Source: Rhodocyclaceae bacterium | GTDB taxonomy: Bacteria > Pseudomonadota > Gammaproteobacteria > Burkholderiales > Rhodocyclaceae | Direction of reading: 5' to 3' | DNA: 35,817 bases | Assembly: GCA_028687645.1 (NCBI GenBank) | Contig: JAQTZQ010000020.1 | Span: 1-35,817, forward strand | Shown: positions 1,440-25,745 of the stretch, one piece after another | Numbering within the stretch: the first letter of the stretch is position 1 | How the letters are laid out: every line of letters starts with the position of its first letter | Notes under the pieces: generated by a model | Told to the model about the DNA's origin: nothing | Databases searched by the model: none | The model's input: only the letters and a program-made list of their open reading frames with translations | Program-made: the position numbers and the translations under genes

Positions 1440-2069
1440 CTATTTGGTACGCTTCACTGTAGTCTTTTTCTTGACCGGCTGACTAGCACAAAGTCCATAC
1501 AAAAGCGTATCGGAAAAAGCCTCGCCGAGTTCGTCAGCGTTCATCGGCCCCTTGGCCGAATACCACTCCGATGCCCAGTTCAAAGCACCAAGAACCGAGA
1601 AAACCGCAACACGAACATTGAGATCGGAGCGGAAAACGCCACTTTGAATACCGTCCTCAATAATTTGCTTAAAAGCCTGGGCGTATTGACGACGCATATC
1701 GATCGCACGCTCGCGATTGGTATCAGTCAGGAAACGCCACTGGTGAAAGATAACAAGTGTGCGAGCAGGATCTTCTGCAACAGCCATTAGATGCGCATTA
1801 ATGGCGACGCGCAAACGTTGGTCAGCCGACTCCGTTGAGGACTCAACAAGCTCCAAAATGGAAAGAAAGCGATTAATACCTAAACCGACAATTTCAAGGA
1901 GCAATGCCTCCTTGCTATCGATATGAGCGTAAAGACTACCAGGCAGCAAACCGACTGCCTTAGCAATATCACGCATCGTAGTGCCGGTATAACCTTTTTC
2001 GCCAAAAAGACGAACGGCAGTTTCGAGAATAAGCTCCCGCGAACTGAGATTTTCTTGTACTTTGCTCAT
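1440..2069 (-). CDS. TetR-family transcriptional repressor (candidate master regulator of the catabolic island)
   Basis: This 209-residue protein has an N-terminal TetR DNA-binding domain (about residues 10-56). It contains ETAVRLFGEKGYTGTTMRDI and a recognition helix around VGLLPGSLYAHIDSKEALL. The remaining ~150 residues are helical and would bind the ligand; the shape resembles KstR2-like regulators that sense an acyl-CoA, but this is inference. The basic tail (KKKTTVKRTK) is unusual but short. It sits at the edge of the ETF/beta-oxidation block, and a motif related to those near the acyl-CoA dehydrogenase, MaoC and second CoA ligase promoters lies about 120 bp upstream of its ATG. That suggests autoregulation and control of the island. 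The ribosome-binding site is weak. TetR membership is firm; ligand and targets are inferred. Confidence 0.88.
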   Translation of the reverse strand: MSKVQENLSSRELILETAVRLFGEKGYTGTTMRDIAKAVGLLPGSLYAHIDSKEALLLEIVGLGINRFLSILELVESSTESADQRLRVAINAHLMAVAEDPARTLVIFHQWRFLTDTNRERAIDMRRQYAQAFKQIIEDGIQSGVFRSDLNVRVAVFSVLGALNWASEWYSAKGPMNADELGEAFSDTLLYGLCASQPVKKKTTVKRTK

Positions 2070-2336: not shown

Positions 2337-3269
2337 TCACCCCAACTCGGAGACAAACTGCGGCACTAACTCGAATAGATCTCCAACCAGACCATAGTCT
2401 GCAATCTGAAAAATTGGCGCATCAGGATCTTTATTGATGGCAACAATGATTTTTGAATCTTTCATGCCTGCCAAGTGCTGAATAGCGCCCGATATCCCGA
2501 CTGCAATGTAGAGTTGCGGCGCAACGATTTTGCCCGTCTGCCCCACTTGATAATCGTTTGGCGCGAATCCCGCATCAACAGCGGCACGTGAAGCGCCCAT
2601 CGCTGCGCCAAGCTTATCGGCAAGCGGATCTAGTAAATTATGATAATTCTCACTACTTCCAAGACCGCGTCCACCTGAAACAATAATCTTTGCAGCGCCG
2701 AGTTCCGGGCGCTCACTCTTGGTCAGCTCTCGACTGACAAATGAAGATTTCCCTCCCGATGCAGGTACGGAAAGTTCGACTATCGGGGCCGCACCTCCGG
2801 TTCCTGCAGCATCGAAACCCGTTGTTCGTACGCTGATCACCTTGATCAGATCGGCGGATTTAACCGTTGCCAAGGCATTACCAGCATAGATCGGACGGAC
2901 AAAAGTATCAGGCCCTTCAACCGAAACGATTTCCGATATTTGAGCGACATCCAGCAAGGCGGCAACACGCGGCAAGAAGTTCTTACCAAAAGTCGTTGCA
3001 GGCGCCAGGATATGCTCATATCCACCGCTAATCGCCAGGACCAAGTCAGCAACATCCTCAGCAAGTTGAGGCTCAAGCGCTGCGCTGTCGGCCATCTTGA
3101 CGGAGGCCACACCAGCAATGCCGGCGGCCTGTTCGGCCACCCCCTTACAAGCGAACCCAGCGACCAGGATGTGGACTTCCGATCCAATCTTGTTTGCCGC
3201 AGTTATGGTATTCAGCGTCGCGCTCTTAAGCGCCTTATTGTCATGTTCTGCAATTACCAAAATAGCCAT
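2337..3269 (-). CDS. etfA: Electron transfer flavoprotein, alpha subunit (FAD-binding)
   Basis: EtfA (310 residues from [11 protein letters not shown]) pairs with EtfB to accept electrons from acyl-CoA dehydrogenases and pass them to the quinone pool through ETF-quinone oxidoreductase. The N-terminal ~190 residues are the ETF Rossmann-like domain. The C-terminal ~115 residues are the FAD domain, with [32 protein letters not shown] and the signature [16 protein letters not shown] followed by [14 protein letters not shown] chose the ATG at 3267-3269, four bases past the etfB stop; a TTG 15 bases further upstream lies inside etfB and is less likely. It forms an operon with etfB and is the natural electron acceptor for the acyl-CoA dehydrogenase encoded at 12324-13460. 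Confidence 0.95.
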
Positions 3270-3273
3270 TTTT

Positions 3274-4029
3274 TTACCCCGCAATTACTTTTGCTTCATT
3301 TTTGAGTTTATTGAGCAGCACTTGCACATCCGGAACGATTATTCCTGCCTTGCGTGACGATGGCTCAACCACCTTGAGGGTGGTCAGGCGTGGCTCAACG
3401 TTAACCCCCAGGTCCGCTGGCGTTAAGGTCTCTAGCGGCTTCTTTTTGGCTTTCATGATGTTGGGCAAAGTGGCATAGCGTGGCTCGTTCAGTCGCAGAT
3501 CAGTAGTCACAACCGCTGGCAACGGCAATTCCAGGGTTTCGAGGCCACCATCGACTTCACGCGTCACAATTGCCTTACCGTCTACGATTTCAAGTTTCGA
3601 AGCAAAAGTAGCCTGCCCACAGTTCATGAGTGCAGCCAGCATCTGGCCGGTCTGATTGGCATCATCATCGATCGCCTGCTTACCGCAAATTATAAGTTGC
3701 GGTTTTTCCTTGTCATAAATCGCTTTGAGCAACTTGGCTACTGCCAATGGCTGCAAATCGATATTGGTCTCAACCAAAACAGCACGATCGGCACCGATCG
3801 CAAGACCCGTGCGCAATGTTTCCTGAGATGCCGCAATACCACACGAAACCACGACAACCTCACTAGCCACACCCGCCTCTTTGAGACGGACAGCTGCTTC
3901 AACGGCAATTTCATCAAAGGGATTCATCGACATCTTGACGTTTGACAGGTCCACTCCGGAACCATCCGCCTTTACACGGACTTTCACGTTGTAATCAATT
4001 ACCCTTTTAACAGGAACAACGATCTTCAT
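3274..4029 (-). CDS. etfB: Electron transfer flavoprotein, beta subunit
   Basis: EtfB (251 residues) holds AMP and forms the heterodimer with EtfA. Family marks are the N-terminal [19 protein letters not shown], the [21 protein letters not shown] segment and [10 protein letters not shown] about halfway (the ETF beta signature region). The length is normal for the bacterial group I (fatty-acid oxidation) ETF rather than the FixAB type. It precedes etfA with a 4-base gap, so the two are co-transcribed and probably translationally coupled. The 109 bp upstream (4030-4138) separate it from the stress-protein gene; no clear promoter could be assigned there. Confidence 0.95.
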
Positions 4030-10378: not shown

Positions 10379-10399
10379 TTCTATCTCCTTCAATACCGT

Positions 10400-12064: not shown

Positions 12065-12195
12065 ACTAATAGTCTCCACCATTGGGTTTGTGCTTAACGA
12101 ATTTCGTTTTACGACGAACTCCTCCCCGAATAAAAAACAGACCACCCCTCCAAAACCAGCAAAAGCCAAAATACACATCAGCTTTCGGGTATTTC

Positions 12196-12323: not shown

Positions 12324-13460
12324 TTACAAGCCGAGTTCTTTGGCAATAATGCTGCGCTGAATTTCGTTTGTGCCACCACCAACCATCCCGTGTTTTGCCT
12401 CACGGAAATAGCGCTCCATATCATATTCAGGAACCTGAGCGTAACCACCCAAAGCTTGCATGCCATCGAAGGCGATCTTGAACAAAGTCTCGGAGCAGAA
12501 GACCTTAGCCATGGAGACTTCTCGAATAGCACGCTCGCCACGCGCCATCTTGCAAGCTGCGGAGTAGACCAGCAGGCGGGCAGCCTCGAGTTGCGTAGCA
12601 CCTTCAGCCATTCGGTGTTTAAGAACCTGAAAATCCGACAGGGAGCGACCAAACTGTTTACGATCCTTGGTATAACGAATCGTGTCATCCAAGGCAGTCT
12701 GTGCATTCCCAACCTGCGAAGCGGCGATACTCAGACGCTCGAATTCCAGGTGCTCACCAATGTAGTGCCACCCTTTGCCAACTTCGCCGAGAAGGGCGTC
12801 TTTCGGTATCCGCATGTTGTCCATGAAGAACTCTGTCGTACCCAAGCTTTTGCGGACGATCGTGTTCATTTTCCGGATATCCAAACCCGGAGTTGTATTC
12901 GGCACCAGAAACAAACTGAACCCGTCGTAACGCTCAGCACTTGTGCGAGCCAGAATCGCGATGGTGGCCCCCGGTAGATGAGCACCCGAACAGAAAACCT
13001 TGTTGCCGTTCAGTACCCACTCATTCCCATCAAGATGAGCCGTCGACCTGGCAGACGCAGCATCCGAACCAGAGCCCGGCTCACTGATAGAAATTGAGAA
13101 CTTGCCAACACCTCGCAAGAAAGGCTCCAGATAGCGCGCTTTCTGCTCAGGGGTGCCATGGCGCGAGATATTCGTCGCCGTAAACATGGAAGTCATGATG
13201 CATGCCGCAGTATCGAGGCTGAATTTTCCGATTGCCTCACAGAAGATTGCGAACATGACCGGATCAGCAGCAACACCGCCCTGCTCCTCATCTACCAGCA
13301 GCCCCAACCATCCTTGCGCAGCCATCTTCTGGAACACTTCTTCGGGAAACTCGCGGCTTTCGTCATGCTTGCGCGTGTATTCGCGACCAACTTCTTTTTC
13401 CATGAAATTGTGCACCGTGTCGTGCCACATGCGCTGCTCGTCCGTAAAACGGAAATCCAT
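12324..13460 (-). CDS. Acyl-CoA dehydrogenase (IVD/LCAD-like base position)
   Basis: This 378-residue FAD enzyme would form the alpha-beta double bond of an acyl-CoA and pass electrons to EtfAB. It shows all three acyl-CoA dehydrogenase domains: the N-terminal helices, the middle beta domain (FSISISEPGSGSDAAS, residues ~121-136) and the C-terminal helices ending GGGTNEIQRSIIAKELGL. The usual catalytic Glu of the YEGT motif is replaced (VGGGT, residues 360-364). A Glu at 241 in EFERLSIA aligns by eye with the alternative base of isovaleryl- and long-chain acyl-CoA dehydrogenases. This suggests a branched or bulky substrate. It is a single-gene unit with its own promoter (13572-13600) that overlaps a candidate TetR operator; the AGATGGAGAAAAAAGC ribosome site precedes the ATG. 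Confidence 0.92.
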   Translation of the reverse strand: MDFRFTDEQRMWHDTVHNFMEKEVGREYTRKHDESREFPEEVFQKMAAQGWLGLLVDEEQGGVAADPVMFAIFCEAIGKFSLDTAACIMTSMFTATNISRHGTPEQKARYLEPFLRGVGKFSISISEPGSGSDAASARSTAHLDGNEWVLNGNKVFCSGAHLPGATIAILARTSAERYDGFSLFLVPNTTPGLDIRKMNTIVRKSLGTTEFFMDNMRIPKDALLGEVGKGWHYIGEHLEFERLSIAASQVGNAQTALDDTIRYTKDRKQFGRSLSDFQVLKHRMAEGATQLEAARLLVYSAACKMARGERAIREVSMAKVFCSETLFKIAFDGMQALGGYAQVPEYDMERYFREAKHGMVGGGTNEIQRSIIAKELGL

Positions 13461-13872: not shown

Positions 13873-14619
13873 CTATTGCGCCGTCATGCCTGCATCGATC
13901 ACATGTTCTGCACCTGTGATGTACGAAGCCTCATCGGATGCGAGGAAAAGCACTAAATTAGATACTTCGCCTGGATCTGCGATTCGCCCGAGCGGGATCA
14001 TGGACGTAGCATTACCACCGTTGTCATCGGTTGCTTCAACCATCATAGGCGTCAGAATGAAGCCTGGATGAACAGAGTTAACCCGGATATTTTTGGGGCC
14101 ATATTCAATGGCCGCAGCCTTCGTCATACCCCGGACAGCAAATTTGCTAGCCACATAGGCAATGCTCGGAAATCCATAGTTAGCTACGATGCCGGCGATT
14201 GATGAAATATTGACGATAGAACCTATACCAGCTTTGAGCATGGAAGGAATTGTTGCTTTCATGCCAAAAAAGACAGCGTGCTGATTCACCGAACATACTT
14301 TCATATAGTCTGCTTCGCTCAACTTTGCAGTCTTAGTGACCGGCCCCAGAATTCCAGCATTGTTGACTAGGACGTTCACTGGCCCAAATGCCTTCTCAAC
14401 AGCATCGACTACGGCATACCAATCATCCAGACTGGAAACATCGTGTCGAATAAAGATGCCATTGGGGCCTAATTTGTCCGCGAGGGCCTTGCCTGCAACT
14501 TCATTCGTGTCAGTCAGTACAACTTTGGCACCTTCCGCTACAAATTTTTCCGCATGAGAAGTACCCATGCCACGGGAAGCACCGGTAATGATTGCCACTT
14601 TTCCAGTTAGTCTTGCCAT
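13873..14619 (-). CDS. Short-chain dehydrogenase/reductase (NAD(P)-dependent)
   Basis: This classical SDR (248 residues from the ATG at 14617-14619; a TTG directly before it is less likely) would oxidise or reduce an alcohol/ketone, for example a 3-hydroxyacyl-CoA or a ring hydroxyl. The cofactor motif TGASRGMG is at residues 13-20, NNAG at 86-89, the catalytic Ser in NISS (137-140), and Tyr155/Lys159 in YVASK. Asp37 after the second strand (VVLTDT) suggests NAD(H) preference. Two extra residues separate Ser and Tyr compared with the usual spacing. The ribosome site AAAGAGAG is present. It is transcribed in the same direction as the second SDR but 448 bp away, with an AT-rich leader of its own. 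Confidence 0.9.
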   Translation of the reverse strand: MARLTGKVAIITGASRGMGTSHAEKFVAEGAKVVLTDTNEVAGKALADKLGPNGIFIRHDVSSLDDWYAVVDAVEKAFGPVNVLVNNAGILGPVTKTAKLSEADYMKVCSVNQHAVFFGMKATIPSMLKAGIGSIVNISSIAGIVANYGFPSIAYVASKFAVRGMTKAAAIEYGPKNIRVNSVHPGFILTPMMVEATDDNGGNATSMIPLGRIADPGEVSNLVLFLASDEASYITGAEHVIDAGMTAQ

Positions 14620-14942
14620 CAAATTCTCTCTTTACAAATTTTGGGGGACGGGATTTTCCTGTAAAACGCCACTTTTGAATTTGCCGAATACTGCTAGTTG
14701 GCTCAACCTCAGTAGCGGATTCGAATATTTCTGCTTAGCCGTGCTTCCTTATATTCGGCTGAGACAAGCACAAAATCCAACTCAGCTTGGAACCTCAGAA
14801 ATCACGCCACAAAAATGGCAAAAGTTTGTTCTTTCCACCTGATTGCATATTTCGACACCAGGACAATCCTGCCCATTTGACTTCCGTTCTTTTTTCTCGC
14901 TGGACTCGGAAAAAATGCAGGCAGACTTTTTTGCCGGGCAAA

Positions 14943-15067: not shown

Positions 15068-15808
15068 TTATAGAGAGGTATAGCCGCCGTCAATAAGAAT
15101 GGAGGAACCCGTGATAAACGACGACTCGTCACTAGCGAGGAATACCCCCAGATGAGCAACCTCTGAAGCATCGGCCATACGGTGCAACGGGACTGCATTT
15201 TTTACGGCTTCAATGTATTCGGCAGGCATGTGTGCCGTAATACCCGTAGTAATCGGGCCGGGACAGATCACATTTGCACGGATACCCTGCTTGGCATATT
15301 CAACAGCAGCGACCTTTGTCATCTGCCCAACCGCGCCTTTGGAGGCGCAATAGGCCGTCATGGTCGGGAACGCCACGACTTGGGCCATGGAAGACGTATT
15401 TACAATGGCGCCACCGCCGCTCTTGAGCATCAAAGGGATGCCGTAACGCATGCCAAGAAATACGGAACGGCCATTGATCGCCCATACGCGGTCAAATTCT
15501 TCTTCGGAATATTCGCCGGTAGGAACCATGCCACCGTCGATCGCTGCGTTATTTACCAGCACATTGAGCTTACCAAAGTGCGTAATTGCCGCTTGCAACA
15601 TAGCCTGAACATCAGCACTTTTTGAAACATCGGCCTGAAACGGGATGCAATTACTACCGATTCGTTTAGCAACAGCGTCCTGCTGGCCGGAAATATCGGC
15701 AGCAATGACCTTTGCCCCTTCACGACAGAACATCTCTGCCATGGCAGCGCCGATACCAGATCCAGCACCCGTAATGACAGCTACTTTTCCTTCCAATCTT
15801 CCAGCCAT
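15068..15808 (-). CDS. Short-chain dehydrogenase/reductase (NAD(P)-dependent)
   Basis: A second classical SDR of 246 residues. TGAGSGIG is at 13-20, NNAA at 86-89, NTSS at 137-140, Tyr153/Lys157 in YCASK, and the C-terminus GSSILIDGGYTSL is typical. Asp38 (IAADIS) suggests NAD(H). It differs clearly from the neighbouring SDR, so the pair is not a recent duplication. The ribosome site GAAGGAGAC lies just upstream of the ATG at 15806-15808. It follows the crotonase-family gene by 67 bp on the same strand and may be the last gene of the long operon that starts at the MaoC gene. A 3-hydroxyacyl-CoA or hydroxysteroid-like substrate is plausible but not shown by sequence. Confidence 0.9.
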   Translation of the reverse strand: MAGRLEGKVAVITGAGSGIGAAMAEMFCREGAKVIAADISGQQDAVAKRIGSNCIPFQADVSKSADVQAMLQAAITHFGKLNVLVNNAAIDGGMVPTGEYSEEEFDRVWAINGRSVFLGMRYGIPLMLKSGGGAIVNTSSMAQVVAFPTMTAYCASKGAVGQMTKVAAVEYAKQGIRANVICPGPITTGITAHMPAEYIEAVKNAVPLHRMADASEVAHLGVFLASDESSFITGSSILIDGGYTSL

Positions 15809-15875: not shown

Positions 15876-16703
15876 TTACTTGCTCGGTTTCTTGTCATTT
15901 GCGTTGAACCTCGCTGGACGCTTCTCGCGGGCGGCAGCGACGCCTTCTTTCAAGTCTTCGGTATGGCTCATCGTAGCAACCGCCCAGAAGCTCGCATTCA
16001 TCGAACTGATCAGATCCATATGCCAACTTTGCCGCAGCTGCTGCTTGGTCGCTTCCAGCGCCAAACGCGGATAGGCTGCAATCCGCGCTGCCAGTTCAAC
16101 CGCCGTAGCAATCAAGGCTTCTGGCTCGACCACCCGATTGACCAGCCCCATCGCCAGCGCACGCTCGGCATCGACGATATCGCCCGTCAGTGCCAGTTCG
16201 GCTGCCATGCCCGAGCCAATCAGACGGGGCATAAAGTACGTCCCGCCATTACCCGGATTCAGTCCCAGCTTGATGTAGGTTTCACCCATCTTGGCCCGGG
16301 TCGAGGCAATCCGTAGATCACAGGCCAATGCCAAATCAAAGCCACCCGCCGTCGCACCACCATTGATCGCCGCAATCAGCGGCAACCGGCAGCTCACCAG
16401 CCGCTGCGTCACCGGAAACAGGACTCGGGCGTTGTACGGCTCGTGCTCAATGGCAATCCGCTCTTCCAAATACCGCGCAAAGGTCGGCAAATCAGCACCC
16501 GCACAGAATTGCTTGCCCGCGCCGGTCAGGACCAGAACACGCACCGACTTGTCCTCTTCGATCGCATTGATCGCAGCCAACAAATCCCGCGCCATCTCAG
16601 GTACGACGCCATTGCCAAACTCCGGCCGGCTCAGCGTCAGAACTACAACGCCATCCGCCGCTTTCTCGTAGTAGACGGTTTCCAGTTCTACGCGCTGTTT
16701 CAT
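15876..16703 (-). CDS. Crotonase (enoyl-CoA hydratase/isomerase) family protein with atypical active site
   Basis: I chose the ATG at 16701-16703 (275 residues) because AAGGAG precedes it. Upstream frame extension runs into the intergenic gap. The crotonase fold is clear, with both oxyanion-hole segments: FCAGADL (66-72) and GGATAGGFDLALACD (115-129). By eye, the two catalytic glutamates of enoyl-CoA hydratase are changed: the first is Asp123 (GGFDL in place of GGCEL) and the second position is Tyr143 in GETYIKLG. It may therefore be an isomerase, hydrolase or C-C bond enzyme rather than a plain hydratase; Glu141 lies close by and could substitute. It belongs to the GC-richer operon that begins at MaoC, 31 bp after the thiolase gene. 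Confidence 0.85.
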   Translation of the reverse strand: MKQRVELETVYYEKAADGVVVLTLSRPEFGNGVVPEMARDLLAAINAIEEDKSVRVLVLTGAGKQFCAGADLPTFARYLEERIAIEHEPYNARVLFPVTQRLVSCRLPLIAAINGGATAGGFDLALACDLRIASTRAKMGETYIKLGLNPGNGGTYFMPRLIGSGMAAELALTGDIVDAERALAMGLVNRVVEPEALIATAVELAARIAAYPRLALEATKQQLRQSWHMDLISSMNASFWAVATMSHTEDLKEGVAAAREKRPARFNANDKKPSK

Positions 16704-16734
16704 GGTTCTCCTTTTATGCTCTTTGTCTTTTTGT

Positions 16735-17904
16735 TCAGTTAATCTTGCGCACAACACTGGCGATGGCCAGTGCATACCGGCCATCGAGCCAGCCACCACC
16801 ATTCACCGCAAGACCTATATTAGCTTTGGCCAACTGCCGACTGCCTGCACGCCCACGCAACTGCGTGCACAACTCGGCAATCTGCGCACACCCTGTAGCA
16901 CCCAACGGATGCCCACGACTCAGCAGACCGCCGCTCGTATTCACCGGGATACGGCCACCAATATCAGTTTCCCCGCGGCGCACCAAATGATGCGCTTGCC
17001 CTTCTTCGCAAATCCCGATTTCCGAGTACTGCAGCAGCTCAGCCGGTGCCGCCGCATCATGTAGTTCGATCATGTCGAAATCATTGGGACCCAAACCTGT
17101 CGCCTCATAGACCGCCTGAGTCGCGCGCTGAACAGGACTACCTCCAGCTCCCGGGCCGATCTTTGAGGTCAGCAGCTCAAGGCCACCCGCCCCAAGCCGC
17201 CGGGCATAGGACTCAGAACAAAGGAGTAGCGCCGCACCACCATCCGTGGTCGGCGAACACATCGGCAAGGTCAGCGGCGAAACAATCATGCGACTGCCGA
17301 TCACATCTTCAAGCGTCTGCGGCTTGCGCAGATGGGCCAGCGGATTGCCGGCCGCATGTCGCCGATTCTTGACCGCAACCCGCGCGAAATCCTCCGCCGT
17401 CGCATCGTAACGATCCAGATAGCTTTGGGCCACACCCGCGTAATACTCCATCAGCAGAGAACTGCTGGCGACCTCACCCGGAATGGCCTCTCCAATTTCG
17501 CCAATATCCGTCGCCCCACGCAAGGCATTGAAGGGGCGCGAACGATCTTCATGGTTGAGCTGCTCCGTGCCAACCACCAGCACCACCTCAGCCATGCCAC
17601 TCTTGATCGCCTCGAAACCGAGAAAGAGCGCAGAACCACCAGAGGCACAGGCATTCTCGACATTGATCAGCGGCCTTGCTGCCAGCCGGTGGTTACGCAG
17701 GGCCACCTGCCCACGAATCATCTCCTGCTGCGAAACGATACCCGCCGCTGCATTGCCGAAGTAAATCCGCTCCACGTCTTCAACCGGAATACCAGCATCC
17801 AACAACGCCTCATCAATGGCAGCAACCGCCAAGGCGCCATAGCCACGGCCCATGTGTTTGCCAAACGGCGTCATACCGACACCGGCAATCAGAACTTTGC
17901 TCAT
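16735..17904 (-). CDS. SCP2-type thiolase (acetyl-CoA acetyltransferase family)
   Basis: This 389-residue thiolase would cleave a 3-ketoacyl-CoA with CoA. The nucleophilic Cys86 is present in ENACASGGSA. The histidines His282 (IELHDAAAP) and His332 (RGHPLGATG) are also present. In SCP2-type thiolases the second acid/base Cys is found in HDCF or in a CxG motif near the end; here these read HDAA and VNGGG (Asn368), so neither position is Cys. The enzyme should still form the acyl-Cys intermediate but may be slow in the condensing direction or use another base. It is separated from the upstream CoA ligase gene by only 2 bases, so the two are coupled. Confidence 0.9.
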   Translation of the reverse strand: MSKVLIAGVGMTPFGKHMGRGYGALAVAAIDEALLDAGIPVEDVERIYFGNAAAGIVSQQEMIRGQVALRNHRLAARPLINVENACASGGSALFLGFEAIKSGMAEVVLVVGTEQLNHEDRSRPFNALRGATDIGEIGEAIPGEVASSSLLMEYYAGVAQSYLDRYDATAEDFARVAVKNRRHAAGNPLAHLRKPQTLEDVIGSRMIVSPLTLPMCSPTTDGGAALLLCSESYARRLGAGGLELLTSKIGPGAGGSPVQRATQAVYEATGLGPNDFDMIELHDAAAPAELLQYSEIGICEEGQAHHLVRRGETDIGGRIPVNTSGGLLSRGHPLGATGCAQIAELCTQLRGRAGSRQLAKANIGLAVNGGGWLDGRYALAIASVVRKIN

Positions 17905-17906
17905 TG

Positions 17907-19502
17907 TCAGACTCCTTTTACTGATTGCTGTGTCGGACCACCACCACCGATCCGCCCTTCATGACCCACCCAGTAGGTCTCACGAATCTCTTTTCGCATG
18001 ACCTTGCCGTAGCCACTCACCGGCAACTTCTCCATAAAATCCACAGCCTTGGGCTTCTTGTAACCAGCCATGTTGTTGCCACAATGCTTGATGATTTCTT
18101 CCGCCGTGACCGTCATTCCCGGCTGGCACTCAACCACGGCATGAACAGCCTCACCCCAATAGGCATCAGGGATACCGAAGACCACAACGTTGGCAACCGC
18201 CGGATGGGCAACGATGACTTCCTCGACCTCTCGCGGATAGACGTTGTTGCCACCAGAAATAATCATGTCCTTGGCGCGATCCAGCAGGAACAGGTAGCCG
18301 TTTTCATCAAAGGCACCAATGTCCCCGGTATGCAGCCAGCCGTTGCGCATGGCTTCCGCCGTCGCCTCCGGGTTGTTCCAGTAACCGGCCATCACGATGT
18401 CGCCACGAACAACGACTTCGCCAGCCTGTCCGGGCGGCAATTCCTGATCGTTGGCATCAACGACACGCGCTTCAACATCAGTCCGGATCGTCCCGGTAGA
18501 ACCAATTCTCGGATCGTTCGCCGCAGCCATGCGCGCCGTCACTGCCGCGTTCATCCCGGTAATCGTGATCGGCGACTCGCCCTGACCATAAAGCTGGGTA
18601 AACACCGGACCAAACGCCTTGATGGCATTGCGCAAATGCTCGACGTAGATCGGCGCACCGCCAAAGCAGATAGCGCGCAGGCTAGATAAGTCATATTTGC
18701 CCGGCTCAAACTCTTCAAGCATCTTGATGATCTGCGTCGGCGCGAGGAAAGCAATGTGCGACACCCGCATCCGCTCGATCAGCGCGAACAATTCCTTCGG
18801 CTCGAAACTCTTGTTCTCGAAGATCACATTGGTCGCCCCACGCGCCACTGCCGGCAAAGCAATGATCCCGCTGCCATGCGACATCGGCGCTGCATGTACA
18901 ACCACTTCCCCTGGCTGAATATTGTGCAGGTCAGCCAGGTAATTCATGATCACCACCCTCACCGTACGATGCGTCCAGGTGGCACCCTTCGGCCGCCCAG
19001 TCGTACCCGAGGTGTAAAACAACCAGCAGGGATCCGTCTCGGCAACCTCCACCGGCACAGCCAAACGAGCCGCTGGATCAAGCAGCGTCTCGTAGGTGGC
19101 AGCCCCTGTCGCCGAGGTCAGGCAGATACGGTGACTGACACCGGCAAAGTCACCGATATGCTCAACGATCCCATCCTGAAACTCGGCCCCGTGAATCAAT
19201 ACCTTGGCCCCGGAATTCCCGACGATGTAGGCAATTTCCTTGGCATGCAGGCGGGCATTGGTCGGCACCACCACCAGACCGGCAGCGAAGCACCCATAAA
19301 TCGTTTCCAGGATGCGCGGACTATTGGCCAAACAGAAGGCGACGCGATCACCCGCCTTCAGACCCAAAGCCAGCAAATTGCCGCCAATCGTCAAGGCGCG
19401 CTGATAAAACTCGTCATACGTGATTTGCTCATCACCATGAATCAGCGCCAAGGTAGCCGGATTCTGACGCGCCGCTTTCTGTAAGAAGATGCAGGTATTC
19501 AT
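17907..19502 (-). CDS. AMP-dependent acyl-CoA synthetase (class I adenylate-forming)
   Basis: From the ATG at 19500-19502 (531 residues; AAGAAGGA lies upstream) this is a full-length acyl-CoA ligase. It shows the P-loop YTSGTTGRPKGATWTH (163-178), the A4/A5 motif YGQGESPITITG, LHTGDIGAFDENGY, and the hinge DRAKDMIISGGNNVYPREVE. The C-terminal catalytic Lys is in SGYGKVMRKEIRE. It would activate the free acid or an acyl intermediate with ATP and CoA. The FadD3/FadD17-like style seen in steroid and terpenoid clusters fits the context, but the substrate cannot be read from sequence. It lies between the DUF35 gene (16-bp gap) and the thiolase gene. Confidence 0.92.
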   Translation of the reverse strand: MNTCIFLQKAARQNPATLALIHGDEQITYDEFYQRALTIGGNLLALGLKAGDRVAFCLANSPRILETIYGCFAAGLVVVPTNARLHAKEIAYIVGNSGAKVLIHGAEFQDGIVEHIGDFAGVSHRICLTSATGAATYETLLDPAARLAVPVEVAETDPCWLFYTSGTTGRPKGATWTHRTVRVVIMNYLADLHNIQPGEVVVHAAPMSHGSGIIALPAVARGATNVIFENKSFEPKELFALIERMRVSHIAFLAPTQIIKMLEEFEPGKYDLSSLRAICFGGAPIYVEHLRNAIKAFGPVFTQLYGQGESPITITGMNAAVTARMAAANDPRIGSTGTIRTDVEARVVDANDQELPPGQAGEVVVRGDIVMAGYWNNPEATAEAMRNGWLHTGDIGAFDENGYLFLLDRAKDMIISGGNNVYPREVEEVIVAHPAVANVVVFGIPDAYWGEAVHAVVECQPGMTVTAEEIIKHCGNNMAGYKKPKAVDFMEKLPVSGYGKVMRKEIRETYWVGHEGRIGGGGPTQQSVKGV

Positions 19503-19518: not shown

Positions 19519-19926
19519 TCATTTAGAAGATGTGTGACGGAACCAGGCAGCAGACTGACACGCAATCGAGTCACCCGACATCGGCACATACTCGACCGGC
19601 ACATCGCAGGCGTAGCTATCCCAGTCGCCATTCGCATCCGGCACCAGGCGCGTCAATAACTGAACACCCTCTTCAAGCTTCACAACCCCAAGCGCATATG
19701 GCAGATCAGCCTCGAAGCCAATCGGCGCCCCCATGCGCAACACCGTAAAGCTATGCAGAACACCACGCCCAGAAGCTTTTTGCCACCCCAGCGAGGAAGA
19801 TTGACAGTGCGGACAAGCATGGCGGGGATACATATTCAGACCACCACAGTCATTACATTTCTGAACCAACAATTCGCCACGAGCCAAGCCCGCACGGAAT
19901 TCATCACGAATCGGGTTATGACTCAT
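19519..19926 (-). CDS. DUF35 OB-fold zinc-ribbon protein (thiolase/aldolase partner)
   Basis: This 135-residue protein has a rubredoxin-like zinc ribbon (Cys24, Cys27, Cys38, Cys41 in KCNDCGG and ACPHCQ) followed by an OB fold (GRGVLHSFTVLRMGAPIGFEADLPYALGVVKLEEG). Members of this family, such as the C-terminal part of ChsH2 in actinobacterial steroid degradation, bind thiolase-fold enzymes and are needed for their activity or stability. Its start overlaps the stop of the adjoining thiolase-fold gene by one base (TAATG), so the two are translationally coupled. Because that neighbour lacks the thiolase Cys, the pair resembles ChsH2-Ltp2. It may also serve the true thiolase two genes away. Confidence 0.88.
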   Translation of the reverse strand: MSHNPIRDEFRAGLARGELLVQKCNDCGGLNMYPRHACPHCQSSSLGWQKASGRGVLHSFTVLRMGAPIGFEADLPYALGVVKLEEGVQLLTRLVPDANGDWDSYACDVPVEYVPMSGDSIACQSAAWFRHTSSK

Positions 19927-21155
19927 TACTTTCCTCCCTTCGCGACCCGCTCAAGGAGCAGGACCTGCGCATCCATGTAGCTACCGCCAGTACCACCAAC
20001 GATGCATCGCTGCACCCCCGGAACCTGACGTTGCGATCCAGCACGACCAAGCAATTGACGCACCCCTTCAACCAGCAGCGCCGTACCACCGCCAACACCG
20101 GTATGACCCGCCGACAGCATGCCGCCATTCGTATTACAGGGCAGTTTGCCGCCCGGATCGGCCGCACCCGAAGCAAACCAGCGCGCCCCCTCAGAGGGCT
20201 CGCAGAAACCCAGCCCCTCAACCGCAATGGCGGTGACCGCCGCATAGGTGTCGTAAATCTGCGCTATTTGCGCATCTTCCGGACCCCAACCCGATTGCTC
20301 ATAGGCCCGTTTAGCCGCCGTGGCCCAACCCAACGCAGCAAGGTCAGGCTCCTGGCCGATACTGTAGTGGCTCACGCAACCACCCGAACCAGCCACCCGA
20401 ACCATGGTGTCCAGACCCCGCTTTTTGGCGTTTTCTGCACTGGTCATCACAAAAGCAACCGCACCGTCAGCCAGCATCGGACACTCCAGGGCATGCAGCG
20501 GCTCCGCCACAACCTTCGAGGCCAACACCTTCTCAACCGTCAGCGGCTTGCCGTAATACATCGCATTCGGATTGAGTTGCGCCCAATTACGAAGGGTGAC
20601 GCAGACAGAAGCCATGGCCTCCGGACTAGACTGGGTGGCATGCATGTAGCGTCGCGTAATCAGCGCACCAATGGCATTAAATTGCAGGCCCGTCGGCATT
20701 TCCCACTCACCAGGAATGCCGTACTTGCTCAACATCGTCACCATTTCATTCACGTCCGCCGAACCCCAGCGTTCGCATTGCAGAACCAGCACGGTGCGGG
20801 CATGTCCCGATGCAATCAAGCCCGAGGCCAGACGCACAGCGTTGTCGCTGGTCGAGCCGCCAGAGTGCACCATGAAGCTCGATTTCAGATGACCGATCAG
20901 CCCCAACTCTTCCGCCATGCGCGAGAAGATAAGGTCAGCTTGGTCCACAGCCGAATGCAGGTTCGGAATCAGCAAAATAGTGTCGACATCACGCGGCACC
21001 ATCTTGGCGTCTGCCAGCGCCAGCAATCCAACACGCGTCAGGTCACCAATAAAATTACGGTCCGGATAGCGCCCGGATGGCAATTCACCCACACCAATGA
21101 AGACCGGATCATTAGGCGACTTGGCGTCGACGTTCAAGGGCCAGGTATCAGCCAT
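19926..21155 (-). CDS. Thiolase-fold protein without nucleophilic Cys (Ltp2-like retro-aldolase candidate)
   Basis: This 409-residue protein has the thiolase fold (DGAVAFVMTSAENAKKRG, NTNGGMLSAGHTGVGGG) but cannot do thiolase chemistry. Where the neighbouring thiolase has NACASGG (Cys86), this protein has FMVHSGG, putting Val96 at the Cys position. The thiolase His of the HD motif is Tyr301 (QIYDTYAAV), and His351 remains in SAGHTG. Ltp2, the aldolase of steroid side-chain degradation, likewise lacks the Cys and depends on tyrosines, one of which (Tyr294) I recall at this position. It would cleave a tertiary beta-hydroxyacyl-CoA to a ketone and a short acyl-CoA. It overlaps the MaoC gene by 8 bp and the DUF35 gene by 1 bp. 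Confidence 0.87.
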   Translation of the reverse strand: MADTWPLNVDAKSPNDPVFIGVGELPSGRYPDRNFIGDLTRVGLLALADAKMVPRDVDTILLIPNLHSAVDQADLIFSRMAEELGLIGHLKSSFMVHSGGSTSDNAVRLASGLIASGHARTVLVLQCERWGSADVNEMVTMLSKYGIPGEWEMPTGLQFNAIGALITRRYMHATQSSPEAMASVCVTLRNWAQLNPNAMYYGKPLTVEKVLASKVVAEPLHALECPMLADGAVAFVMTSAENAKKRGLDTMVRVAGSGGCVSHYSIGQEPDLAALGWATAAKRAYEQSGWGPEDAQIAQIYDTYAAVTAIAVEGLGFCEPSEGARWFASGAADPGGKLPCNTNGGMLSAGHTGVGGGTALLVEGVRQLLGRAGSQRQVPGVQRCIVGGTGGSYMDAQVLLLERVAKGGK

Positions 21156-21639
21156 GAGCGACTCCTTCAGCCGGACGACGTTTGGCCAGCATACTTTGCA
21201 GGAAGGACATCACCTCTTCCTCGCGTTGATTACGAACCGAATAGCGCACTCGCAGCGTGCCGTATTTCGGATGGCTCACCGCATCAAGCTCGACCACTTC
21301 GGCATGAACCTTCAAGGTGTCGCCCGGAATAACCGGCTTCAATGCCCGCAGATTGGTAATTTCCAGCAGCGCAACAATCGCATCGCCGTAAAAACCACTC
21401 ATACCAACCAGACCGACTGCAATCGCAAAAGTCAGCGGACCGTGCGCAATGCGCGTCCCAAAGCGCGTCCCTTTGCCAAACTCCTCATCGATATGCAGCG
21501 GGTAATGATCCCCCGTCAGCCCCGCGAAGACCGTCAGATCACCGATATCAACCGTCCGACCCCGCGTTACAACCACGTCACCCAGCAAAAAATCATCAAA
21601 ACTCTTCGCCGATGGATCTCGAAAAATTCGTCCAGACAT
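21148..21639 (-). CDS. MaoC-like (R)-specific enoyl-CoA hydratase
   Basis: This 163-residue single hot-dog hydratase carries the hydratase 2 motif with catalytic Asp44 and His49 in LTGDHYPLHIDEEFG, and continues FGTRIAHGPLTFAIAVGLVG. The length fits a dimeric MaoC domain protein. It would add water to an enoyl-CoA, supplying the beta-hydroxyacyl-CoA for the retro-aldolase-like protein encoded directly downstream (8-bp overlap). It is the first gene of the minus-strand operon that runs at least to the crotonase-family gene. A good ribosome site (GGAAGG) precedes the ATG at 21637-21639, and an operator-like palindrome lies at 21661-21673. Confidence 0.9.
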   Translation of the reverse strand: MSGRIFRDPSAKSFDDFLLGDVVVTRGRTVDIGDLTVFAGLTGDHYPLHIDEEFGKGTRFGTRIAHGPLTFAIAVGLVGMSGFYGDAIVALLEITNLRALKPVIPGDTLKVHAEVVELDAVSHPKYGTLRVRYSVRNQREEEVMSFLQSMLAKRRPAEGVAHG

Positions 21640-21904: not shown

Positions 21905-21943
21905 TTCTTGATCATCGACAGAAGTCAATTAACCAAATACGAC

Positions 21944-23674
21944 ATGACCACACTCAACGCCCAAGCAAGACGAGAGCTTCTGCAATCAGGACATCCAAAG
22001 TGGGTGCCGATGACGATCTCCCAAGCACTTGACCAAGCAACAAGCCGCTATGGCAGCAGGCCATTAGTCATCACAGGGGAAAAGAGTTACTCCTATCAGG
22101 AGATACAGTCATGGTCGCGTGAAATTGCAGCAGGACTCATCGCCGGTGGTCTAAAAGCGGGCGACCATGTCGCAATAGTAATTGGTAATTATCCTGAATT
22201 CGTGGCAATCAAATTTGCCATAGCCCGCGTCGGTGCCGTTGCTGTTCCGATGAACTATCTGCTCCGTCATAACGAAATGAACTACGTGCTGGAGCAATCT
22301 GACAGCACCGTGCTATTCATCATGAATGCCATGCGGGATCGAGACTATCTTGCCGATCTGGACCAGATAATCCCAGGCTGGGAAACTCAGGGGGGTGGTA
22401 GTCACCTTCCTAAGTTGCGAGAGGTTATCGTCATCGACATCGATGGCAACATGCGATCGAATGCAAAAACACTGGGAACATTAATCGCTCAAGGTAATAG
22501 CGACTCCTTCGATCAACTTGCATTATGCGAGAAAAATGCTGATCCGGACTTTCGTTCCGACATCGTTTATACCTCGGGCACTACTGGCCGACCAAAAGGT
22601 GTGATGCTGACGCACCAAATGGTCCTTCGTGCTGCCTACGCATCGGCCTATGTTCGTGCATTTGAGGACGGCCGGAGAATTTTGTTCGCGCTACCCATGT
22701 ATCATGTGTTTGGCTACGTTGAATGCCTAATGGCCAGCATATTTGCTGGTGGCGCCATCATTCCACAAGCCATTTTTGATGCAGCGCAAATGCTTGACTT
22801 TGTCCAAAAACATCGTGCCAGCGAAATCGTATGCGTTCCAACAATGACGCTGAAACTCCTCGAAATAGCGCAGCAACACCCGATAGATCACTCGAGTCTC
22901 ATTGCAGTTTTTAACTCCGGTGGCGATTCACCTCCGACCATCTGGCAAGATATCAGATCAATTCTTGGCGCTTCTGAGGTTTTAACTGGTTATGGCATGA
23001 GCGAAACCACCGCCTCTACTACCTGCACCTTGCCTGAGGAGCCGGACAAGTATGTACTAAGAACCAATGGCAAACTTAAGCAGGCAGGCATTGCAGGAGC
23101 AGGACTTCCCCACGAGCATCTTGCGACCTACAAGACCATCGATCCGGAGACAGGGGCAGATCTGCCATTTGGCGTCGCGGGTGAATTAATGGCACGCGGC
23201 CCCATCGTCACAAAAGGCTATTACAACAAGCCAGACGAAACCAAAGCTGCATTCAACGCCGATGGATGGTTACATACGGGCGATGTTGGGACTATCACGG
23301 CGGAAGGCTACCTAACGCTGACTGGCCGCATCAAGGAAACTTATCGCTGTGGCGGCGAAATGGTGATGCCGCAAGAAATCGAATCCGTTCTAATTGAACA
23401 CCCCCTCGTTGCCCAAGCATCAGCGGTTGGAATTCCTGACAAAAAGATGGGTGAAGTCGGCTGTGTATGTATTGTCTGCAAGGGTGACAAACAACCAGAT
23501 GCACAGGAGCTGATTGATTTCTGTGCTGCGCGATTGGCACGCTTCAAGGTTCCCCGTCACATCATTTTCCTGACTCCAGACGAAGTGCCACGCACCGCCA
23601 CAGGTAAGGTACAGAAATTTCGCCTTGGAGACATCGCAAAACAACGGATTGCGGAACTTGCTAGCCGACAATAA
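21944..23674 (+). CDS. AMP-dependent acyl-CoA synthetase (second, plus-strand)
   Basis: This 576-residue ligase (ATG at 21944; a TTG at 21908 is an alternative start and the ribosome site is weak for both) carries YTSGTTGRPKGVMLTH (209-224), YGMSETTAS, LHTGDVGTITAEGYLTLTGR, the hinge GRIKETYRCGGEMVMPQEIE and the C-terminal Lys in PRTATGKVQKFRLG. It is distinct from the minus-strand ligase and more AT-rich. It is probably the entry enzyme for the free acid, because it heads an operon with an ABM-domain protein, a ferredoxin and a ferredoxin reductase and is divergent from the degradation operon. A TetR-type inverted repeat covers its promoter, so induction by an acyl-CoA product is likely. Confidence 0.9.
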   Translation: MTTLNAQARRELLQSGHPKWVPMTISQALDQATSRYGSRPLVITGEKSYSYQEIQSWSREIAAGLIAGGLKAGDHVAIVIGNYPEFVAIKFAIARVGAVAVPMNYLLRHNEMNYVLEQSDSTVLFIMNAMRDRDYLADLDQIIPGWETQGGGSHLPKLREVIVIDIDGNMRSNAKTLGTLIAQGNSDSFDQLALCEKNADPDFRSDIVYTSGTTGRPKGVMLTHQMVLRAAYASAYVRAFEDGRRILFALPMYHVFGYVECLMASIFAGGAIIPQAIFDAAQMLDFVQKHRASEIVCVPTMTLKLLEIAQQHPIDHSSLIAVFNSGGDSPPTIWQDIRSILGASEVLTGYGMSETTASTTCTLPEEPDKYVLRTNGKLKQAGIAGAGLPHEHLATYKTIDPETGADLPFGVAGELMARGPIVTKGYYNKPDETKAAFNADGWLHTGDVGTITAEGYLTLTGRIKETYRCGGEMVMPQEIESVLIEHPLVAQASAVGIPDKKMGEVGCVCIVCKGDKQPDAQELIDFCAARLARFKVPRHIIFLTPDEVPRTATGKVQKFRLGDIAKQRIAELASRQ

Positions 23675-23733
23675 AGCAAAAAATATCGCGCTATGCCTTG
23701 CATAAAAATATGCCGCGACAGATTGGAGAAAAA

Positions 23734-24033
23734 ATGGTTATTGAACGTGTAGAACTGCTAATTAAGACCGGACAGGAATCGGCTTTCGAAACCGCCATGG
23801 TTCGTGGTCAGGCCTTACTTGCATCGGCCGCTGACTGTCGTTCTGTAACTATTGCGCGCGGAGTTGAAAATGCTGAGAAATTCCTGCTCCTCCTCGAGTG
23901 GGATTCGCTGACCGCACATACAAACTTTACACAAACGACAGAATTCGCGCAGTTCCGTGAAATTGCTGGGCCTTTCTTTGCCGCACGGCCTGCTATGGAA
24001 CATTTTTCGCCAGTAATAAACTTGGCCGCCTAA
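23734..24033 (+). CDS. Antibiotic biosynthesis monooxygenase (ABM) domain protein
   Basis: From the ATG at 23734 (GGAG five bases upstream) this is a 99-residue dimeric alpha-beta barrel protein: VIERVELLIKTGQESAFETA, then RSVTIARGVENAEKFLLLLEWDSLTAH and FREIAGPFFAARPAMEHF. The EKFLLLLEWDS strand is typical of ABM/YgiN-like proteins. Known members are cofactor-less oxygenases of quinols or heme-degrading enzymes, but many are of unknown role. It has no obvious cofactor residues. Its place between a CoA ligase and a ferredoxin pair hints at a role in the redox step or in aldehyde/hydroxy product handling, which is inference only. Confidence 0.7.
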   Translation: MVIERVELLIKTGQESAFETAMVRGQALLASAADCRSVTIARGVENAEKFLLLLEWDSLTAHTNFTQTTEFAQFREIAGPFFAARPAMEHFSPVINLAA

Positions 24034-24070: not shown

Positions 24071-24376
24071 ATGCCACACGTAGTTACTGATAATTGCCAA
24101 CGTTGCCGCTTTACCGAGTGCGTCGTTACTTGCCCAACCGCTTGTTTTCATGGCGATGCAGATATGTTGTACATCGATAGCGTCGCATGCATTGACTGCG
24201 CAGCCTGCGTTACTGCATGCCCGGTACGCGCGATCTATGAACTCACCGACCTGCCAGAAGACAAGGCTCACTGGGGACCTATCAATGCAGAGCGAGCAAT
24301 GATCCTACCTATTGTTGACCACAAGCAAGAGCCGTTGTCGACAGCAAATGCTCGCAGAACTGAACTAGGCTACTGA
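24071..24376 (+). CDS. Seven-iron (3Fe-4S/4Fe-4S) ferredoxin, FdI type
   Basis: This 101-residue ferredoxin has nine cysteines in the pattern of Azotobacter FdI shifted by one: Cys9, Cys17 and Cys50 for the 3Fe-4S cluster, Cys21, Cys40, Cys43 and Cys46 for the 4Fe-4S cluster, with Cys12 and Cys25 as the free ones. The text reads NCQRCRFTECVVTCPTACF and CIDCAACVTACPVRAI. The long acidic C-terminal tail is also typical. It lies 37 bp after the ABM gene and 7 bp before a ferredoxin-NADP reductase, with which it should exchange electrons. The final electron acceptor (a P450, Rieske oxygenase or reductase) is not in this window. The ribosome site GGAG is at proper distance. Confidence 0.93.
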   Translation: MPHVVTDNCQRCRFTECVVTCPTACFHGDADMLYIDSVACIDCAACVTACPVRAIYELTDLPEDKAHWGPINAERAMILPIVDHKQEPLSTANARRTELGY

Positions 24377-24383
24377 GTAAATC

Positions 24384-25745
24384 ATGCACACACTTGGAAC
24401 TGAACTCAATCCACTACGCATTGCCATCGTCGGCAGTGGCCCAAGTGGCTTTTACGCAGCGGAGGAATTGCTCAAGTCGAGCATGGCGGTCAGCGTGGAC
24501 ATGATTGATCGACTGCCATCTCCCTTTGGACTCGTCCGAAGTGGAGTTGCGCCTGACCATCCTAAGTTAAAGATGCCAATTGTCGTGTTTGACAAGGTTG
24601 CCCAGATGCCTGGATTTAGCTTTCACGGCAATGTCACGGTTGGCCAGGATATATCCGTAGAGGCCTTGCAAAAGACTCATCATGCAGTGATTTTTACGTG
24701 CGGCGCGCAAACCGACCGTAAACTAGGGGTGCCTGGGGAGGCTTTAGCAGGTAGCCATACAGCCACTGAATTCGTTGGCTGGTACAACGGTCACCCAGAC
24801 TATCGCCATCTAAATTTCGACCTATCTCAGGAAGTCGCAGTCATCATAGGCCAAGGCAACGTTGCTGCTGACGTTGCTAGAGCACTCAGTAAATCGGTCG
24901 ATGAATTAAGAACTACCGATATGGCAGAACACGCAATTGAAGCGTTAGCCAAAAGTCGTGTTCGCGAGATTCATATTATCGGCCGCCGGGGCCCTGCTCA
25001 GGCAAAGTTCACCAATAAGGAACTAAAGGAACTCGGAGAGTTAACCGGATGCTCCGCTGAAATCAACTCGGGTGGCATTGTCCTGAACGACGAAAGCCTC
25101 GTCGAGATCGAAAGCAAAACCAATTTTATCGCCGCAAAAAACGTCGAAATCATGCGCTCTTGGACGCAAAACGCCGCAACAAATGGCAACAAGCGGATTG
25201 TTTTCCATTTCCAGCAGAGTCCGGTCAAGCTGGTTGGTACAGATAGGGTCCAACAAATCATTCTGGAAAAGAATAACTTGAAGGGGCCTGCCTTTGACCA
25301 ACAGGCATATGGAACAGACGAACAGGAAATACTGAATTGCGGTTTAGTATTCCGCAGCATTGGATACCGTGGAGTTCCAATTCCAGGTGTTCCGTTCGAC
25401 GAAAAAAAAGGAACCTTTCCCAACTCGGCGGGCCGCATAAATAATGCGAGAGGTCTTTATACCGCTGGTTGGATCAAGCGTGGGCCATCTGGCATTATTG
25501 GCACAAACCGTGCCGATGCACTTGAAACGGTAGCTACTCTTCTTGGAGACTTGGAATCCCTAGAGCGAGATCCAAAGCCAGGTTTTTCGGCACATTTCAG
25601 CACACTTGAAAATAGCAAAGTAAAGGTTGTTAGTTACCAAGGCTGGCAACGAATCGATGCGGAGGAACGTCGCCGAGGAGAACTCAAAGGAAAGCCGCGA
25701 GAGAAAATCACTGACATTGCCGAGATGCTCAGTATTGCAAGCTAA
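24384..25745 (+). CDS. Ferredoxin-NADP+ reductase, adrenodoxin-reductase type
   Basis: This 453-residue flavoprotein belongs to the FprA/adrenodoxin reductase family, which carries electrons from NADPH to ferredoxin. The FAD motif IVGSGPSGFYAAEELL (15-30), the family signature FGLVRSGVAPDHPKLK, the NADP-binding VIIGQGNVAADVAR and the C-terminal GWIKRGPSGIIGTNRADA are all clear. The length is the usual ~450 residues. It is the last gene of the operon from the second CoA ligase. Together with the seven-iron ferredoxin it forms a complete NADPH-driven electron chain. No P450 or oxygenase follows in the window, so the partner must be encoded elsewhere. The ribosome site is weak, probably because translation couples to the upstream ferredoxin gene. 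Confidence 0.93.
   Translation: MHTLGTELNPLRIAIVGSGPSGFYAAEELLKSSMAVSVDMIDRLPSPFGLVRSGVAPDHPKLKMPIVVFDKVAQMPGFSFHGNVTVGQDISVEALQKTHHAVIFTCGAQTDRKLGVPGEALAGSHTATEFVGWYNGHPDYRHLNFDLSQEVAVIIGQGNVAADVARALSKSVDELRTTDMAEHAIEALAKSRVREIHIIGRRGPAQAKFTNKELKELGELTGCSAEINSGGIVLNDESLVEIESKTNFIAAKNVEIMRSWTQNAATNGNKRIVFHFQQSPVKLVGTDRVQQIILEKNNLKGPAFDQQAYGTDEQEILNCGLVFRSIGYRGVPIPGVPFDEKKGTFPNSAGRINNARGLYTAGWIKRGPSGIIGTNRADALETVATLLGDLESLERDPKPGFSAHFSTLENSKVKVVSYQGWQRIDAEERRRGELKGKPREKITDIAEMLSIAS

Follow-up and report, generated by a model that had tools for sequence, protein, structure and literature searches.

Three overlapping genes on contig JAQTZQ010000020.1 of a Rhodocyclaceae bacterium (assembly GCA_028687645.1), here analysed from position 1 to position 35,817 (the window), code for a MaoC-type hydratase, a thiolase-fold protein without the nucleophilic cysteine and a DUF35 protein. 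We propose, with moderate confidence, that this trio is a retro-aldolase set for a tertiary beta-hydroxyacyl-CoA, which would arise in the breakdown of camphor or a related bornane via 6-oxocamphor and would be cleaved with release of acetyl-CoA. Judged from sequence, a retro-aldolase function is quite probable, and a bornane or camphor context is likely.

The trio and its relatives

The initial annotation of the window had described a hydratase, a thiolase-fold and a zinc-ribbon OB-fold gene overlapping by 8 and 1 bp, and coordinates, junction letters and Pfam matches (Table 1) agree with this: 8 bp are shared by the MaoC and thiolase-fold genes and 1 bp by the thiolase-fold and DUF35 genes. 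Residues D44 and H49, which we take to be the catalytic pair of the MaoC hydratase, are invariant in all 10 aligned rows, and the four cysteines C24, C27, C38 and C41 of the DUF35 protein are invariant in all 9 aligned rows, with 13 rows known in each case.

Relatives were sought by scanning genome contigs with two short peptide patterns, and the scan therefore reaches near relatives only. Eleven of the 12 loci obtained hold true relatives with 63-94% identity (tblastn), whereas L036, with 28% identity, holds an ordinary thiolase and was dropped; a plasmid collection added a 12th relative on pR8L1 of Rhodococcus sp. 008 (65%, locus L023), and together the 12 relatives span 62-94% identity. According to their record titles, the relatives come from Sphingorhabdus, Novosphingobium, Sphingomonadaceae, Sphingomonadales, Rhizobiaceae and an uncultured proteobacterium as well as from Nocardioides (two), Aeromicrobium and an actinomycete metagenome-assembled genome (MAG), the phyla being Pseudomonadota and Actinomycetota. 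As the MaoC, aldolase and DUF35 genes are contiguous and in the same order in all 12 related loci, their arrangement is not due to chance, and the trio is a real, conserved gene set. The trio is accompanied by an acyl-CoA dehydrogenase and an enoyl-CoA hydratase gene (10 of the 12 loci each), a thiolase and a TetR gene (9 each) and a FadD-type and a divergent synthetase gene (7 each), counted with preset identity limits at loci several of which are cut by contig ends. In the same genus, 10 of 35 genomes had a match at E<=0.001, and since none of these matches exceeded 36% identity, the gene set is patchy and perhaps acquired. In the class sample no further genome reached E<=1e-70, nor did any in the phylum sample reach E<=1e-60, scoring having covered up to four candidates in each genome.

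Active site, phylogeny and predicted structure of the thiolase-fold protein

Active-site columns were read from an alignment with six PDB chains, the PDB stretches being copied from HMMER output. The column of the thiolase nucleophile holds Gly100 in the window protein, and not Val96 as initially annotated; glycine is found there in 13 of 13 family rows and also in the two steroid enzymes Ltp2 and Sal. The HD motif of thiolases is replaced by Y301-D302-T303-Y304, so that the earlier assignment of Tyr301 to the position of the motif's histidine stands, and His351 aligns with Ltp2 Tyr344 and Sal Gln352. Y301, a serine or threonine at position 303 and H351 are kept in all 13 family rows, with threonine confined to the window protein and L025 and serine in the other 11. 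By this alignment, the family's Y-[S/T]-H is a third residue combination among characterised members, next to Y-H-Y in Ltp2 and Y-C-Q in Sal. The roles of Ltp2 Tyr344 and Sal Gln352 are taken from PMC12329534.

Four features of the broad Ltp2/Sal kind were found in the window protein: there is no nucleophilic cysteine, a tyrosine starts a YDxx motif, the protein groups with Ltp2 and Sal, and a DUF35 gene is adjacent, as it is in 12 of 12 related loci. In a tree of 37 rows, midpoint-rooted for drawing, the 13 family members form a single branch (100/99), whose neighbour is a protein from a Rhizobium etli plasmid (100/100). This R. etli protein (L024, 14983-16577) is a YDAY thiolase-fold protein with 40% identity to that of the window, is accompanied by an OB-fold protein and has hydantoinase-type, acetoacetate decarboxylase-family and P450 genes as neighbours. 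A fork supported at 100/98 separates 26 rows, all with YD and without the nucleophilic cysteine and including the family, Ltp2, Sal and 4U4E, from 11 rows with the SCP2 thiolase, 7YVY, BbsB and the second thiolase of the window; h_L013_2 and h_L014_1 among the latter lack the HD motif. Long branches were flagged for these two rows as well as for Sal and Ltp2. The family lies outside both the Ltp2 subclade, in which Ltp2 pairs with h_L012_3 (99/98), and the Sal subclade. A position away from Ltp2-like enzymes together with a different active site had been named beforehand as grounds for abandoning the aldolase assignment; this is half the case, as the subclade is different and the active-site letters are partly so, whereas the large clade is shared. 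Nine further tree rows, from loci L004-L012, are thiolase-related proteins with YD[ACS]F, no nucleophilic cysteine and a histidine at the 351 column, and by these letters they are likely a wider branch of non-thiolases.

Comparison with known systems places the trio near, but not within, the steroid side-chain enzymes. CtSal-CtShy, the bile acid aldolase/hydratase of Comamonas testosteroni (9MYR; PMC12329534), has in common with it a thiolase fold without nucleophilic cysteine, DUF35 and MaoC domains, a tyrosine in a YDxY motif and a glycine at the thiolase cysteine position. However, CtSal carries YDCY with an essential Cys304 and Gln352 where the window family has YD[S/T]Y and His351, CtShy is a MaoC-DUF35 fusion with a Cys3His zinc site whereas the window has separate genes and four cysteines, and the context is steroid in the one case and bornane-type in the other. 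Ltp2-ChsH1-ChsH2 (6OK1) shares the four-cysteine DUF35 protein, and the retro-aldolase Ltp2 cuts at a tertiary carbinol of the steroid cyclopentane ring (C17-OH); it differs in having YDHF and Tyr344 instead of YDTY and His351, in a hydratase formed with ChsH1 and in its separate clade. The likeness to ChsH1/ChsH2-Ltp2 noted in the initial annotation thus holds at the level of the large clade but does not extend to equivalence with Ltp2, and a proteobacterial location, there regarded as special, is not unusual, since proteobacterial Shy/Sal and Ltp2-type sets have been published for C. testosteroni (PMC12329534, PMC12502768). The putative thiolase 4U4E of Sphaerobacter thermophilus has YDSF and, like the family, a histidine at the 351 column, but only 30% identity in the Foldseek alignment and a place in another subclade. 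BbsAB, the benzoylsuccinyl-CoA thiolase (7PXP), likewise combines a thiolase fold with a DUF35 subunit, yet is a true thiolase with cysteine and HD motif.

Both the aldolase and the DUF35 protein have the Sal-Shy(DUF35) entry 9MYR as their best PDB sequence match, and Sal and Ltp2 are within the top four for the thiolase-fold protein. A first AlphaFold2 (AF2) model of this protein was poor (pLDDT 46.7), while a second, whose input alignment included ten thiolase rows, reached a pLDDT of 78.0 and a pTM of 0.85 and has a thiolase fold, with residues 348-355 around His351 scoring below 50, so that this loop is unreliable. In Foldseek the second model matched the thiolase 7YVY first, Sal (9MYR) fourth, 4U4E fifth and Ltp2 (6OK1) ninth; 6ET9 and 6ESQ are also among the first ten, and the model resembles thiolases and PhlC too. 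The predicted structure therefore confirms the fold but does not separate aldolase from thiolase, given the thiolase rows in the alignment, the low-scoring His351 loop and the first rank of 7YVY.

Camphor-type companions, proposed pathway and alternatives

On pR8L1, a crotonase gene diverges from the dehydrogenase-MaoC-aldolase run, and its best PDB match is the 6-oxocamphor hydrolase 1O8U (E 4.8e-110), followed by the beta-diketone hydrolase 2J5G (1.4e-74), with the first enoyl-CoA hydratase at 5.6e-25. The window's own genome (G000) encodes a homologue with 62% identity to 1O8U (L040:7227-8126, contig C279), adjoining the only P450 match of this genome and retaining all five residues that we take to be catalytic in 6-oxocamphor hydrolase (His45, His122, His145, Asp154 and Glu244). 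Identity of the hydrolase homologues to 6-oxocamphor hydrolase ranges from 57 to 69%; the first four residues are present in all 12 distinct genes spanning them and Glu244 in all but one (Gln, L061), while the copy in L032, cut by a contig end, spans Glu244 only. Such homologues (55-100%) occur in 10 of the 12 family genomes scored, G000 included. They share the fetched locus with the trio in 6 of 12 related loci, including the cut copy of L032, and in L023, L033 and L034 they stand immediately next to the dehydrogenase-MaoC-aldolase run in divergent orientation.

A Baeyer-Villiger monooxygenase (BVMO) is the other recurrent companion. It is nearest to OTEMO (3UOV; E 2.4e-184, 49%, best PDB match) and 79% identical between G000 (contig C269) and pR8L1, and the best matches across the 12 family genomes are 100 (own), 92, 81, 80, 78, 78, 73 (partial), 58, 50, 48, 39 and 35%. 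The BVMO gene has an SDR (short-chain dehydrogenase/reductase) gene and a gene of the SMP-30 type as neighbours in G000, pR8L1, L029, G800, G808 and G809. In L073 (G806, contig C26), from position 9798 onwards, the OTEMO-like BVMO was matched in two pieces, perhaps owing to a frameshift or a divergent stretch. Homologues of OTEMO and 6-oxocamphor hydrolase thus accompany the trio and are not part of it. Among 72,556 plasmid records, pR8L1 ranked first for the aldolase, the BVMO and the hydrolase (the last at 54%) and was the sole record with at least 60% for the first two. Across 368 other genomes of the class, of which only the top candidates were scored, the BVMO was matched at E<=1e-170 in three (best 51%) and the hydrolase at E<=1e-60 in two (49-50%), and seven stretches around the BVMO homologues of about 50% in three of these background genomes contained no match to a trio protein.

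Camphor breakdown is the source of P450cam. The classic Pseudomonas route has acetyl-CoA and isobutyryl-CoA as end products and uses diketocamphane monooxygenases, which belong to the luciferase family (PF00296); G000 has no PF00296 match, although the same search was positive in 10 of 14 control genomes, so that as far as tested this route is not encoded in G000, and it was set aside. The hydrolase homologue, the OTEMO-like BVMO and the P450 instead point towards a bornane monoterpenoid and away from steroids. In the 6-oxocamphor route of Rhodococcus, camphor is converted to alpha-campholinate, a cyclopentanone with an acetic acid side chain.

From sequences, motifs, clade, gene order and co-occurrence we infer the following activities, substrate, residue roles and order of steps. 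A P450 would hydroxylate the bornane, an SDR would oxidise the product to 6-oxocamphor and the hydrolase would open the ring to give alpha-campholinate. This could then be activated with CoA, its cyclopentanone opened by the Baeyer-Villiger enzyme and the lactone hydrolysed, with an oxidation to follow. The carbon beta to the thioester would be tertiary both before and after the Baeyer-Villiger opening and thus could not be oxidised to a ketone. The acyl-CoA dehydrogenase would introduce an alpha,beta double bond and the MaoC protein would hydrate it to a tertiary beta-alcohol, after which Tyr301 would deprotonate the alcohol and the C-C bond would break to yield acetyl-CoA and a ketone; the enolate would be protonated by another residue, for which His351 is, as a guess, a candidate. 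Placing the aldol step before or after the Baeyer-Villiger step would lead in either case to 4,4-dimethyl-3,5-dioxohexanoate, and its activation by a ligase and two thiolytic cuts would provide two acetyl-CoA and isobutyryl-CoA, so that the scheme would yield three acetyl-CoA and one isobutyryl-CoA in total. The published yield of the Pseudomonas route is likewise three acetyl-CoA and isobutyryl-CoA (PMC8706424, PMC4097962). The hydration and retro-aldol cleavage of a branched acyl-CoA postulated in the initial annotation fit the sequence, with its missing cysteine, its tyrosine for histidine, its DUF35 and MaoC partners and its place in the Ltp2/Sal clade, and remain predicted.

Several observations weigh against this assignment. 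In Sal, the Cys304Ser and Cys304Ala variants are inactive (PMC12329534); as the family carries Ser/Thr at this position, the mechanism of Sal is not transferable and the proton donor must be another residue. A histidine at the 351 column is likewise carried by 4U4E, by the R. etli protein, by all 9 of the 9 other YD rows and by most of the thiolase rows; its conservation therefore does not single out aldolases, and His351 may have been inherited from thiolases instead of being a new acid. In the fetched stretch of L025, the closest relative, no dehydrogenase homologue exceeds 24%; G806 and G807 have no hydrolase match at E<=1e-30 over the whole genome (L032, with the cut copy, belongs to G807), and the BVMO reaches merely 48-50% in G802/G803 and 35-39% in G805/G807. 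The only P450 match of G000 is generic (best PDB match 4DXY, E 6e-49), and the P450, hydrolase and BVMO genes of G000 lie on contigs C279 and C269, apart from the contig of the trio. Homologues of the DUF1302, DUF1329 and MMPL genes of the window were found in none of the 12 fetched related stretches. Most relative genomes are MAGs, with some rows being near copies (L029, L030). Lastly, for Pseudomonas all camphor pathway genes down to isobutyryl-CoA are reported as assigned (introduction of PMC6027186; PMC8706424; PMC4097962).

In one alternative, the trio would carry out the same retro-aldolase chemistry on another terpenoid or alicyclic acid, for instance a cyclohexane- or cyclopentane-acetic acid or a derivative of menthane or cineole, with the hydrolase and the BVMO acting as beta-diketone hydrolase and BVMO of that pathway. 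We regard this as unlikely, though as the strongest of the alternatives: the BVMO is just 49% identical to OTEMO, a beta-diketone hydrolase is the second-best PDB match of the hydrolase, the P450s are generic (P450cam/CYP125-like), no diketocamphane monooxygenase family match exists in G000, and G806 keeps the trio and the BVMO with no hydrolase match. Acetate is reportedly removed from cyclohexaneacetate by a hydroxyacyl-CoA lyase (Ougham and Trudgill, 1982); nothing on the gene of this lyase was found in the literature searched, and we keep the idea only as part of this alternative. The 57-69% identity of the hydrolase homologues to 6-oxocamphor hydrolase and their retention of the presumed catalytic residues, with Glu244 kept in all but one, speak for camphor instead. 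A steroid side-chain set, that is, an orthologue of Ltp2/ChsH1-ChsH2 or Sal/Shy, was considered at the outset for the likeness to Ltp2 and uses the same protein families and gene trio, with Sal and Ltp2 among the best four PDB sequence matches. It is nevertheless highly improbable, being weakened by the separate clade, by the different catalytic letters, by the separate MaoC and DUF35 genes and by the steroid marker HsaA, which scores 40.6 bits in G000 against a cut-off of 450 (a single marker that 0 of 14 control genomes pass, with no positive control). It is also improbable that the trio is a C-C bond forming or acyl-transferring complex, similar to PhlABC or the HMG-CoA synthase complex, or contains an inactive thiolase-like protein. 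DUF35 proteins do partner C-C-forming and acyl-transfer enzymes (PMC12329534), and the resemblance of the AF2 model to thiolases and PhlC would be in keeping with this; on the other hand, there is no nucleophilic cysteine, Y301 is conserved across two phyla, and two acyl-CoA ligases, a dehydrogenase and a thiolase make up a catabolic context.

If the trio does act as hydratase and aldolase on a tertiary beta carbon in camphor breakdown, it would fill a stretch of the lower part of this pathway. For Pseudomonas, the reactions that lead from the first open-chain intermediate, after OTEMO, to isobutyryl-CoA are described as poorly characterised in one paper (PMC6027186), in disagreement with the statements cited above that every gene is assigned. 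In the open-access literature searched, no gene was found for the lower steps of the 6-oxocamphor route, and among the matches listed no paper joins this route with an aldolase or such a gene cluster by title or abstract. To our knowledge, the thiolase-fold retro-aldolase kind is known from steroids only, and the assignment, if true, would extend it to monoterpenoids, provide enzymes with small substrates for C-C bond formation and suggest that the genes annotated as acetyl-CoA acetyltransferase include some that do not code for thiolases. We tentatively go further, though this wider proposal is rather doubtful: C-C cleavage in the lower 6-oxocamphor route might be performed in two phyla by a non-steroid member of the Ltp2/Sal retro-aldolases whose acid/base residues (Tyr + Ser/Thr + His) form a third arrangement, and which might serve as a guide to a wider set of cysteine-less YD 'thiolases' as acyl-CoA aldolases.

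Other genes of the window

The trio stands first in a run of minus-strand genes. Next come genes for an acyl-CoA synthetase, a thiolase of the SCP2 type, a member of the enoyl-CoA hydratase family, two SDRs and an acyl-CoA dehydrogenase, then DUF1302, DUF1329, YCF48-like and MMPL genes together with one for a stress protein, and finally those for an electron transfer flavoprotein and a TetR regulator. On the plus strand, in divergent orientation, lie genes for another acyl-CoA synthetase, for an ABM protein and for a ferredoxin with a reductase (Table 1). The true thiolase that the initial annotation placed in the operon of the trio is present in the same strand run, which may be one operon, and it fits the thiolysis of later intermediates.

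Table 1. Trio and neighbouring genes of the window, with domain support and homologues in the 12 related loci
Feature	Position	Strand	Support
MaoC-type hydratase, predicted for beta-branched enoyl-CoA	21148..21639	minus	163 amino acids; Pfam MaoC_dehydratas E 2.3e-24
Thiolase-fold protein without nucleophilic Cys, predicted retro-aldolase	19926..21155	minus	409 amino acids; Pfam Thiolase_C_1 E 7.2e-45
DUF35/ChsH2-type zinc-ribbon OB-fold partner	19519..19926	minus	135 amino acids; Pfam zf-ChsH2 E 2.8e-13, OB_ChsH2_C E 7.5e-15
Acyl-CoA synthetase, FadD type	17907..19502	minus	Open reading frame listed to 19637, start near 19502 a guess; homologue of at least 55% in 7/12 loci
SCP2-type thiolase with nucleophilic Cys and HD motif	16735..17904	minus	Pfam, alignment; homologue of at least 44% in 9/12 loci
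Enoyl-CoA hydratase/isomerase family protein	15876..16802	minus	Pfam; homologue of at least 52% in 10/12 loci
SDR dehydrogenase	15068..15808	minus	Pfam; homologue of at least 55% in 2/12 loci
Second SDR dehydrogenase	13873..14622	minus	Pfam; 59-78% homologues in L023, L025, L027
Acyl-CoA dehydrogenase, predicted to form the alpha,beta double bond ahead of the hydratase	12324..13460	minus	Pfam; 68-78% homologue in 10/12 loci
Electron transfer flavoprotein alpha and beta	2337..4029	minus	Beta homologue in only 1/12 loci
TetR regulator	1440..2069	minus	Homologue of at least 38% in 9/12 loci
Second acyl-CoA synthetase, divergent from trio	21908..23674	plus	Pfam; 46-53% homologue in 7/12 loci
Small ABM-domain protein	23698..24033	plus	Homologue in 2/12 loci
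Fer4 ferredoxin and reductase (presumably FprA-like)	24071..25745	plus	Reductase homologue in 2/12 loci, L023 and L034

At L025, a second SDR gene (16409-17149) adjoins the first and is 67% identical to the SDR of the window. The MMPL, YCF48-like, DUF1329 and DUF1302 genes are located at 5238-12199 (-) of the window, and such a set is a frequent companion of the catabolism of hydrophobic substrates. At 4139-5164 (-), a universal stress protein domain and, behind it, a hemerythrin domain share one open reading frame. Close to the contig edge, a transposase-type open reading frame (rve/HTH_21) at 440-1300 (+) is compatible with acquisition of an island. At the other end, positions 32424-35376 hold an HpaB-type monooxygenase-family gene, a divergent TetR gene and an isochorismatase-family gene, which probably form a separate unit.

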